Shown here: positions 7,342-9,833 of the stretch, in pieces
Layout of the letters: every line of letters starts with the position of its first letter
How positions within the stretch are numbered: the first letter of the stretch is position 1
IMG/VR virus record: IMGVR_UViG_3300037963_002346
Coordinates: 1-27,209 of that record
Strand: one strand, 5' to 3'
Length of the DNA stretch: 27,209 nucleotides
Source: a virus
Notes under the pieces: model-generated
Told to the model about the DNA's origin: nothing
Seen by the model: only the letters and a program-made list of their open reading frames with translations
The model's database searches: none
Made by a program: the position numbers and the translations under genes

Positions 7342-7577
7342 GCTTGCCCACCTTCTGTTTCGCTGCCATAAATATACAAAATATTATCCTCTAAATCAAA
7401 CTCTGATTTGCATGCTGGACATTTCCATGATTCTATCTCACCATTTGGCTCTATAACGCCTATTCTTTTACTACAATCTTCATCATAGTATAAATTCTTT
7501 TCGCATATAGGACAAGGGTCTACCTTATCAGATATATCACTCTTTTTCTTTATGTGCAAGTACTTTGGTTTCCCCAC
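7338..7577 (-). CDS. Zinc-ribbon protein
   Basis: This 79-residue protein has two Cys pairs typical of a zinc ribbon, C22-x-x-C25 (CPICEKN) and C53-x-x-C56 (CPACKSEF), with an extra C35 between them. The start appears to be GTG at 7575-7577, preceded by GGAGG with a 9-base spacer. This places the first 13 codons inside the end of terS in another frame. A TTG at codon 7 would shorten it. The gene follows terS directly and could be a DNA-binding accessory of packaging or a late transcription factor, but there is no direct evidence for either. Confidence 0.75.
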   Translation of the reverse strand: MGKPKYLHIKKKSDISDKVDPCPICEKNLYYDEDCSKRIGVIEPNGEIESWKCPACKSEFDLEDNILYIYGSETEGGQA

Positions 7578-8292
7578 CTTTAATAGCCTCCAGTTGTTCA
7601 GGACTAAAACCAGCCCATACAGTTAATTCTTCACGTTTCTTTTCTGTTTCAAATAAACCAGACATCTTAGCTAAAGCATCTAAACTTCTAAGTCTGTCTT
7701 GGTCTCTTTCTGAAACATCTGCTATATCTTTATACTTTTGTATAATATATTCTGGTGTAACACCTTCTTCTTTTAATATTAATGATATTTCTTCTTTTAC
7801 CATTTGCATTACCTTTTTTTGTTGTAGTAATTTGTTAGCCGCATTGCGGATATACTGCTTATCGTTAGCTTTAGGGTACACACGACTGTAAGCTTCTTCC
7901 ATATCTATCCCTGCCGCTACATATTTAGCAAATAATAGCTTTTTAGATGACAATTTAGTAGAACGTATTTTATTTATAGACTCATAATTGCCAGAAAACG
8001 TATATATATTCTCTGCAACGCCATTTTCCCCTAATATCTGCGCATTTTTCTGCTTACATACAAAACTACCGCATATTGTGCGCACACACTTACGTTTTTC
8101 TTTAGAGTTGGGGACTGTAATGTAGTATACTTTAAGGATTTGCACTACATAATGGTCATCTGTGTAAACCCAATCACCTTCATTAGCCTTACGCCAGTCA
8201 GGTTTAGGTGTTAACGCACCCTGAAAGGCACAAAACTCTTCATGACTATCATATAGCCTATGTTCTACACCTTTTATCTTTTTGATTTCCAT
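7537..8292 (-). CDS. terS: Probable terminase small subunit with extra N-terminal domain
   Basis: This 251-residue protein has two parts. Residues ~1-105 look beta-rich (GDWVYTDDHYVVQILKVYY, then VRTICGSFVCKQ and YTFSGNYES). From ~112 on it is helical: LSSKKLLFAKYVAAGIDMEE, AYSRVYP and YIRNAANKLLQQKKVMQMVK form the helix-turn-helix and arm region typical of phage small terminases. That is followed by SERDQDRLRSLDALAKMSGL, also common in TerS. TerS oligomers recognise the packaging site and load TerL. It is the first gene of the leftward late block, directly beside the repeat-rich non-coding region. I chose ATG 8290-8292 over one at 8305-8307. Neither has a ribosome site, but TATATTAT lies 4 bases before the chosen ATG. 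Confidence 0.8.
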   Translation of the reverse strand: MEIKKIKGVEHRLYDSHEEFCAFQGALTPKPDWRKANEGDWVYTDDHYVVQILKVYYITVPNSKEKRKCVRTICGSFVCKQKNAQILGENGVAENIYTFSGNYESINKIRSTKLSSKKLLFAKYVAAGIDMEEAYSRVYPKANDKQYIRNAANKLLQQKKVMQMVKEEISLILKEEGVTPEYIIQKYKDIADVSERDQDRLRSLDALAKMSGLFETEKKREELTVWAGFSPEQLEAIKGGETKVLAHKEKE

Positions 8293-8356
8293 TAAAATAA
8301 TATACATTCAATTAATTATTATTGCATACAATATTTATTTTTAGTAATATTACTGC

Positions 8357-8414
8357 GCTATATGGGTTGGTTAAACACTTCTAGCGTATAGCATTAAGAA
8401 TTGACTACTAGAAG
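8357..8414. other. Possible H-type pseudoknot (interlocked inverted repeats)
   Basis: Two inverted repeats interlock. GCTATA (8357-8362) can pair with TATAGC (8387-8392). CTTCTAG (8378-8384), inside the first loop, can pair with CTAGAAG (8408-8414), outside it. The connecting loops are 15, 2 and 15 bases. This geometry is that of an H-type pseudoknot if transcribed. As DNA, the same elements are nested protein-binding repeats. The pairing is equally possible on either strand. Confidence 0.4.
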
Positions 8415-8510
8415 GGGATAAGTTACACAGTCAGAAGCAAGTCGAAGGTAATTGAGCTAGTAACAGAAAAGATTACCCTACCATAATGAACAGGCTCCGA
8501 AACAGCTATA

Positions 8511-8569
8511 TGGGAATTGAGACTAATCTCTTTGTATTTATTATAAGGGGATTAGATAGTCTCTACCCA
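8511..8569. other. Long bulged hairpin next to terS
   Basis: On the + strand TGGG (8511-8514) pairs with CCCA (8566-8569), GAGACT (8519-8524) with AGTCTC (8558-8563), and the nine bases 8525-8533 with 8545-8553 (two G-U pairs). That makes 19 base pairs with one internal loop, a four-base bulge AGAT and an 11-base loop. No T-run follows on either strand, so it is not a terminator. A cruciform or structured RNA at a packaging/replication site is possible. Confidence 0.5.
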
Positions 8570-8669
8570 AAACTCACCAAAACAGCTATAATAATTAGTA
8601 ATAATAATAAAGAAAAGGGAAACTTTTAAAAATAGTATTAGAATGTGTGTGGGTGTTTTTTTGCGCATA

Positions 8670-8697
8670 CCCCCCGTCATAATTTCCCCCATACCCC
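8670..8697 (-). other. G-tract cluster
   Basis: On the - strand there are runs of four, five and six G (complements of 8694-8697, 8686-8690 and 8670-8675) within 28 bases, in an otherwise very AT-rich region. Three long runs, the largest divisible in two, could support a G-quadruplex or act as a polypurine recognition tract. Confidence 0.45.
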
Positions 8698-8770
8698 TCT
8701 TGGTTAGGTTGAAAATTCTGTAAAATATTATAATATTTATCTTTTTATTTAGGAATTTAAAGTAAAAGAC

Positions 8771-8803
8771 AAGCCCCAACCATAATAGTCGGGGCTTTTT
8801 TTT
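8771..8803 (+). terminator. Intrinsic terminator, best in + direction
   Basis: AAGCCCC (8771-8777) pairs with GGGGCTT (8791-8797) across a 13-base loop and runs into eight T (8796-8803) on the + strand. In the - direction the stem is followed by a weaker T-rich tail (TTGTCTTTTACTTT), so it may also stop the leftward genes that end at 8901. No + gene precedes it, which is odd. Confidence 0.7.
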
Positions 8804-8900
8804 GTGGGGTTGTTGTGGGCTTTGTATAGTGCGAACTATGGAAGTCTATATAGTATATCACCATTTAATTTATCTATAATAATATTATCCTTAAACTCGC

Positions 8901-9149
8901 TTATCTGTTTAGGTGTTTGTACATACCACACCCACCCCTTTGATATACTAAGTAATTTAATTTATATACTTCACTTGCTTGATTCATTCTACGTTTAGTA
9001 GTTGGCGTACTCCAACCTCCACTATTTAATATTACATACCTATCATTAACTACTTGTACGACTGCCGTATTATGAAACGTAACTATTAATCTAGACTGTT
9101 CTGTTTCCATTGGTACATTTGCTATGGTTGTTCTATGTGTTCCTATCAT
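8901..9149 (-). CDS. Small conserved phage protein, 'LNSGGWSTPTTKRRMNQAS' family
   Basis: This 82-residue protein has a beta-rich first half (RLIVTFHNTAVVQVVNDRYV) and a strongly patterned middle ILNSGGWSTPTTKRRMNQAS, then LNYLVYQR. I recognise this as a common small family in phages and plasmids, annotated as a domain of unknown function (perhaps DUF8033, from memory). The Thr-Thr-Lys-Arg-Arg-Met segment suggests nucleic-acid contact. The start has GGAG 9 bases before the ATG. It is the last gene of a short leftward early-type set and ends about 100 bases before the terminator. Confidence 0.85.
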   Translation of the reverse strand: MIGTHRTTIANVPMETEQSRLIVTFHNTAVVQVVNDRYVILNSGGWSTPTTKRRMNQASEVYKLNYLVYQRGGCGMYKHLNR

Positions 9150-9195
9150 TTTTATATACTCCTTTTGTTATACTCTTTATTTGTAAGTTATCTAA

Positions 9196-9453
9196 TTAAT
9201 TATCAATTGATTCTTTTAGCATATCAAGCCTTTTTAATACGTCCTCATATGCTCCAATACTACCGTTTATGCTTTCTATTTCTAGGTCTATATGGTATGC
9301 GTCAACGTCTACAACTTCATTGCCATATTGGTCTTGTATTACGTCAACGTCTAACTGTTCACGCTTTTCATATTTACTTTTTAATAAGGTTTCTAGTGCG
9401 TTTACATCATCTTGAATACGGTTTATAACTGCTTGTAATTTTCTCTTATTCAT
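9196..9453 (-). CDS. Small acidic coiled-coil protein, unknown function
   Basis: This 85-residue, acidic, helical protein begins MNKRKLQAVINRIQDDVNAL and has a Tyr/Asp-rich centre (YGNEVVDVDAYHIDLEIE) and a C-terminal helix (YEDVLKRLDMLKESID). The ATG at 9451-9453 is chosen because GGAG lies 7 bases upstream. An in-frame ATG at 9480 would overlap the upstream gene and lacks a ribosome site. I do not recognise the family. It is in the middle of three leftward genes that start from the divergent promoter region. Confidence 0.75.
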   Translation of the reverse strand: MNKRKLQAVINRIQDDVNALETLLKSKYEKREQLDVDVIQDQYGNEVVDVDAYHIDLEIESINGSIGAYEDVLKRLDMLKESIDN

Positions 9454-9457
9454 ATTA

Positions 9458-9751
9458 TTACTCCATTTCTGAGGTATCAAAACCCCACTTTTTCAACTGT
9501 TCTTTTATTATGCTAGGCAAATCAAATATACCATCATAATCTGTAAGCACTCCACGTGTAAACCATAAACCGCCCTCCGCATAATATGCTCCATCATCAC
9601 AATACATTTCAAAAAAACCATATTGTTTTATTGCATCAACTTCTATGTTATATGTTATTTCTTTTTCTTCTCTTTCTGTACTGCCCCAAGAATAATCATA
9701 ACATATATTCTCTATTTTCTTTATGGTTGTTTTAAATTTTAATTTATTCAT
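9458..9751 (-). CDS. Hypothetical protein, 97 residues
   Basis: The protein starts MNKLKFKTTIKKIENICYDY with ATG 9749-9751 and AAAGGA 9 bases upstream. An ATG at 9811 in the same frame has no ribosome site and would lie in the promoter region. The product is acidic and mixed beta/alpha, with aromatic stretches FFEMYCDDGAYYAEGGLWFT and a C-terminal YDGIFDLPSIIKEQLKKWGF. The latter reminds me of small plasmid/phage proteins ending in 'DGVFELPxxVxxxLxxxG', of unknown role. First gene of the leftward early-type set. Confidence 0.75.
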   Translation of the reverse strand: MNKLKFKTTIKKIENICYDYSWGSTEREEKEITYNIEVDAIKQYGFFEMYCDDGAYYAEGGLWFTRGVLTDYDGIFDLPSIIKEQLKKWGFDTSEME

Positions 9752-9833
9752 ATTAATACTTCCTTTTATTTGTTTTAGTTCGCAATAATAATATAATACT
9801 TTTTTATACATTAACCTAATAAATATATATATG

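Follow-up and report, generated by a model that had tools for sequence, protein, structure and literature searches.

Genomic context and repeats

What maintains a repeat-rich stretch beside the small terminase gene (terS) of a phage, and does it act as a site on the DNA or as something else? The question is raised by record IMGVR_UViG_3300037963_002346 (IMG/VR), of which 27,209 of the 28,579 bases were analyzed here (the window). It derives from a phage that we take to be marine, a guess based on sample numbers. The original prediction, made from the letters of the window, was that the repeats themselves form a packaging or replication site.

In the window terS (7537..8307, minus strand; PHROG 51 small terminase, 1.9e-6) is the first of the leftward late genes, being followed by terL and the portal gene according to profile annotation. 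The rightward early genes start at ~9.8 kb and include a Cas4-like exonuclease, a Sak-type annealing protein, a DnaB-type helicase and a resolvase. The repeats lie in the gap of ~590 bases that separates terS from a leftward gene at 8901-9149. Further on, at ~9150-9215, close relatives carry inserts of ~160 bases or more between leftward small genes. Searches of a phage collection, both with the nucleotide sequence of the repeat-rich stretch and with TerS, gave no match, and the best identity of TerL to isolate phages was only ~25%, so that the phage has no close cultivated relative.

All the elements first noticed were located where they had been described. The core GCTATA is found on the plus strand at 8357, 8505 and 8585, and there is one inverted copy (TATAGC) at 8387. 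Two of the direct copies, at 8357 and 8505, are part of GCTATATGGG, of which the window contains no other exact or one-mismatch copy. The longer AAACAGCTATA is present at 8500-8510 and 8580-8590, and between its two copies there is a hairpin that has a 4-nt bulge (stems 8519-8525/8557-8563 and 8526-8532/8546-8552). Finally, the inverted repeat GCTATATG (8357-8364/8385-8392) is interlocked with CTTCTAG 8378-8384/CTAGAAG 8408-8414. Judged from the window alone the case for these repeats and the hairpin is weak, because GCTATA is common in this AT-rich genome, with 28 occurrences on the two strands of the window, because folding of the single sequence did no better than shuffles (z of -1.1 for the plus and +0.25 for the minus strand, which is uninformative), and because the comparison of homologues found the GCTATATGGG pair only in the window's own clade.

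A conserved structured RNA

The comparison with related phages gave a much clearer picture, and we consider it very likely that positions 8357-8592 (plus strand) encode a structured RNA that is conserved among uncultured tailed phages. Searches with TerS retrieved 46, and later 80, related viral loci from IMG/VR, and the stretch beside terS could be aligned in relatives with TerS identities from 100% down to ~53%. About 46 distinct homologues beside terS define one conserved RNA of ~235 nt (core 8357..8592, transcribed away from terS), and covariation was examined on 39 distinct sequences.

The structure was derived from an untargeted scan for coupled alignment columns, in which the interlocked pairs rank high, plus inspection. 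Helix P1 (8357-8364/8385-8392) has two-sided AU/GC and GC/UG/CG changes and is 97-99% paired. The pseudoknot helix PK1 (8378-8384/8408-8414) is 100% paired, with two-sided change at four of its seven pairs, L084 having CTTGTTC/GAACAAG. It is followed by P3 (8402-8406/8429-8433; two-sided AU/GC change, 90% paired) and by a second pseudoknot helix, PK2 (8422-8426/8460-8464), that reads GUUAC/GUAAC, GUAAC/GUUAC, AUAGC/GCUAU or GUAGC/GCUAC depending on the homologue. P6 (8436-8438/8456-8458) is 100% paired, with AU, GC or CG at its first pair, and P5 (8447-8452/8472-8477), which crosses both P6 and PK2, has two-sided changes at three of six pairs and is 95% paired. Each helix crosses the next one, making P1, PK1, P3, PK2, P6 and P5 a continuous chain of pseudoknots. 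The bulged hairpin on the 3' side of the core, with its two stems (8519-8525/8557-8563 and 8526-8532/8546-8552), is 90-98% paired, also with two-sided changes.

In the alignment used for the covariation test (A3, 39 distinct sequences), 95.7% of the pair cells are standard pairs, and two-sided changes affect 23 pairs and 145 cells, these cells not being independent events since the sequences are related (effective number ~14 at 90% identity). When the partners were slid by 1-3 columns only 37-48% of cells were paired, with 4-10 two-sided pairs, and none of 500 shuffles reached the real value; since these same sequences had served to derive the structure, the control by sliding makes the paired percentage look better than it is, and more weight belongs to the two-sided changes. 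There are 181 G-U cells vs 25 A-C cells, which favors an RNA of plus-strand sense, and the alignment gaps are not multiples of three, which argues against a coding stretch. A pairing considered at first, P4 (GAGC 8454 with GGCTC 8493), was dropped because 8456-8458 covaries with 8436-8438, and the first RNAalifold consensus, obtained with the closer relatives, missed the pseudoknots since the method cannot draw them. With a covarying structure, a promoter conserved in position and a predicted non-coding character, the stretch has the features of a structured phage non-coding RNA. The suspicion that the interlocked inverted repeats could form a pseudoknot, and that a structure is maintained beside terS, was therefore right, as related phages show compensatory changes that keep the fold. 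The repeats behaved differently from one another in this comparison: the AAACAGCTATA pair belongs to a feature kept in all homologues, whereas the GCTATATGGG copies are specific to one clade.

Promoter, terminator and twin repeats

A putative sigma70-like promoter precedes the RNA (8322..8350, plus strand), with TTGCAT at -35 (8322-8327), a spacer of 17 nt and TAATAT at -10 (8345-8350). The start expected from it, at ~8357, is the first base of P1. The form seen in the aligned homologues is TTGCAT-17-TATATT, and that of L084 is TTGACA-16-TATATT, the position being kept and the match being best in other clades. The copy in the window fits the consensus poorly (7/12), and a match of this kind turns up in ~17% of mononucleotide shuffles; what speaks for the promoter is its positional conservation and not its score. 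Downstream, a predicted intrinsic terminator (8771..8803, plus strand) consists of a hairpin of -12.4 kcal/mol followed by TTTTTTTT, with a tail of eight Ts. A terminator on this strand was found in 42 of the 48 RNA-bearing relatives scored vs none of 17 without the RNA; L084, L177 and L178 have no convincing one. In the window's clade the unit that starts at the promoter would run to the terminator at 8803 and measure ~450 nt.

The two copies of AAACAGCTATA are both unpaired in the model. The second (REP2, 8580..8590) comes after an invariant CACCA (CTCACCA 8573-8579). Wherever positions 8502-8507/8582-8587 vary, it matches the first (REP1, 8500..8510) exactly in each of the 46 distinct sequences. 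Across clades there are at least six variants (AACAGC, AGAAAC, AGGAAC, AAGAGC, ATGAGC and TAAAAC). No complement of either copy was detected within the RNA by the coupling scan of all columns, nor did the genes and start regions of 12 phage genomes contain a consistent target complementary to the repeat.

Some relatives have a small gene (~80 residues, with a DExWNxxNPRP motif) right after the RNA, namely L087 (3622-3867), L109, L123, L038, L048, L050, L053 and L055-L059. All the distinct homologues with this gene directly after REP2 have the repeat AAGGAAC, which is Shine-Dalgarno-like, with the ATG ~10-15 nt past the start of AGGAAC, and most others differ. The protein of L087 had no match in Pfam or PHROGs, and in genome G006 the small gene sits far from the RNA. 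The window phage and most homologues have no small gene and yet keep the fold and the identical repeats. From this comparison a translational role of the repeats seems confined to some relatives and would come in addition to a shared one; part of the constraint on REP2 may be translational there, as a ribosome-binding site.

Distribution of the RNA

A scan by pattern alone found the same RNA in three further contigs, each time again adjoining terS, and with a second pattern the L084 group gained two members. The RNA is present once per genome in the 12 RNA-bearing genomes searched. A first pattern scan of bacterial genome contigs gave no matches, and none of the 47 pattern matches of a second scan of bacterial genomes had a profile match. 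The RNA is evidently old, as judged by its occurrence at TerS identities down to ~53%.

Phages that lack the RNA (19 distinct members, with TerS ~53-58% identical) group as a single clade in the TerS tree. Three other rows that scored negative were artefacts: the sequences of L061 and L028 are truncated at terS, and L025 in fact has the RNA. Where the upstream sequence of members of the RNA-less clade could be read, the promoter is present, as is the block that otherwise lies downstream of the RNA, with short AT-rich repeats in place of the RNA. These repeats, e.g. ATAATAGAGAT, are specific to the clade (L041, L067-L083 and L085) and located between promoter and block. Several genes are found in RNA-bearing genomes specifically, an association confounded by clade. 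In L051 (741-1029) a small hairpin insert, GCACTTAACAGTGTATCCAAT, is tandemly duplicated within the RNA.

The downstream block and the ends of the contigs

Outside the RNA core, positions 8628..8717 make up a conserved block with the arrangement AAAAATAG..TTAGAATG.GTGT..TTTT, a variable C-rich centre and TAGGTTGAAA, a candidate DNA site found in RNA-bearing and RNA-less relatives alike. Not far from it contig ends accumulate, with 31 of 60 left ends of terS-bearing contigs located 0.5-1.5 kb upstream of terS vs 1-7 per 500 bases elsewhere. In window coordinates this pile-up (~8857-9800) is scattered 90-1230 nt past the start of the block. These contig ends, an indirect counterpart of the physical ends that had been proposed as a check, cluster just beyond the downstream block and outside the repeats. 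We rejected them as evidence of cos, because they scatter over ~1 kb; the zone may correspond to an imprecise packaging cut or simply to a variable locus with insertions. As for the GC-skew inflection also suggested as a sign of such a site, composition skew merely tracks gene direction.

The block is a better candidate for a packaging site or origin than the RNA stretch. The latter is apparently not an obligatory packaging site, given that more distant relatives keep TerS, promoter and block and yet are devoid of the RNA; as a TerS that has diverged may recognize a different site, this absence counts against an obligatory site only. The view that the repeats are themselves the DNA site for packaging (by binding TerS) or replication did not hold up and we regard it as very improbable. 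The adjacency to terS and the nearby contig ends are in its favor, but the ends lie outside the repeats, in a stretch that also varies by insertion, one clade has TerS without the RNA, and the features are those of a transcribed molecule, covarying as single-stranded RNA with a chain of pseudoknots and strand-specific G-U pairs.

Comparison with known RNAs

All the families of Rfam 15 (including group I intron, pRNA, ROOL, GOLLD and tmRNA) were compared with the window and there was no match at gathering level. With relaxed thresholds, weak sub-threshold matches appeared, mostly to the terminator stretch, in the window and, among five related loci, in L029. GAGACTA at 8519 and TAGTCTC at 8557 pair and resemble, by eye and against the consensus, the R and S elements of group I introns. 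This identity was discarded, as there is no room for the 3' strand of P3 between R and P8 (the inner stem directly follows P7) and the coupling scan has no such pairing. A reverse transcriptase as partner was also discarded, none being present in 16 related genomes (G001-G016).

Packaging in phi29 requires the pRNA, which uses complementary loops. The RNA described here is similarly a phage RNA tied to a packaging neighborhood, but its phage has TerS, its repeats are direct and it has no Rfam match. The cabRNA of staphylococcal phages, which triggers CBASS, comes from the coding terS-terL region (PMC10686824). It resembles the present RNA in being structured, similar in size and encoded in the terminase region of a phage, but it derives from coding sequence, whereas the present RNA forms a unit of its own, divergent from terS and upstream of it, and shows deep covariation. 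GOLLD and ROOL are large ornate RNAs, associated with bacteria and phages, oligomeric and without known function (PMC12286853). They too are conserved structured RNAs of this kind, but are larger and oligomeric, and the present RNA has no sequence or Rfam match to them. ToxI-type antitoxin RNAs of type III systems (PMC5086642) combine pseudoknots and repeats and in some cases have a gene behind them, which is the resemblance; they differ in being organized as tandem full units, against one core, two short repeats and no known toxin here. Neither hallmark of a type III toxin-antitoxin system was found, each genome having one core with only short repeats 80 nt apart and no tandem units, and the adjacent small gene being absent in the window and, in L087, matching no Pfam or PHROGs family.

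Possible function of the RNA

Any explanation has to deal with two unpaired segments that change together. We propose that the knotted core would be a rigid scaffold displaying REP1 and REP2, unpaired copies of one short segment, and that both would touch the same partner during infection, either a stretch of nucleic acid or an RNA-binding protein. Such a shared contact would require the two copies to remain identical, although their sequence could drift along with the partner. This two-contact mechanism is plausible, and the structured RNA together with it is, on balance, what we favor as the best explanation of the whole. Only tentatively would we see here a new class of phage RNA, an interlocked chain of pseudoknots with two matching unpaired segments acting jointly on one partner, for instance by base-pairing one after the other with a single DNA or RNA strand. 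To our knowledge no such joint mechanism of two segments is known for any phage RNA.

The main rival, which we consider unlikely, is a preprimer in the manner of RNA II of plasmid ColE1, which is also a structured RNA close to its promoter and followed by a conserved AT-rich block, although with another fold and sequence and with priming by the present RNA being hypothetical. The transcript would fold, stay hybridized to its template in the AT-rich, GT-rich downstream block and prime the host DNA polymerase. REP1 RNA on the template strand of REP2 would explain matching direct copies without a complement in the RNA, and the block lies after the promoter in the relatives compared. Furthermore, no DNA polymerase of family A and no member of PHROG 100 was found in 14 related genomes, and the early proteins that were scanned include neither a primase nor an initiator, though a DnaB-type helicase is present. 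The missing polymerase or PHROG 100 member leaves initiation unexplained and is no proof of a preprimer. On the other hand the block is retained in relatives without the RNA, the main clade has a plus-strand terminator just past it, and the skew, as said, follows the genes.

Two further alternatives appear improbable to us. A leader RNA would control the translation of the ~80-residue gene, with REP2 as Shine-Dalgarno sequence and REP1 as a second copy of it; the fit of AAGGAAC and a suitably spaced ATG in every distinct homologue with the gene, and its absence from most of those without, would be accounted for, but not the fold and identical repeats of the window and most other gene-less homologues, nor the distant gene of G006 and its protein without Pfam or PHROGs match. 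An RNA antitoxin or anti-defense RNA, to which we give similarly little credence, would neutralize a phage toxin or a host defense enzyme by binding it through the two repeats. Pseudoknotted repeat RNAs act in this way in type III toxin-antitoxin systems (PMC5086642), and the unit is small with a separate promoter, but there is no tandem full-length unit, the gene next to the RNA in a relative matches no toxin family, and there is no Rfam match.

Whatever its role, the RNA represents an uncatalogued family, deeply conserved in a group of uncultured phages. It also corrects a natural misreading, as repeats adjacent to terS are not necessarily a packaging site. The repeats changing in concert represent a rare constraint, which makes the function testable by compensatory mutation.
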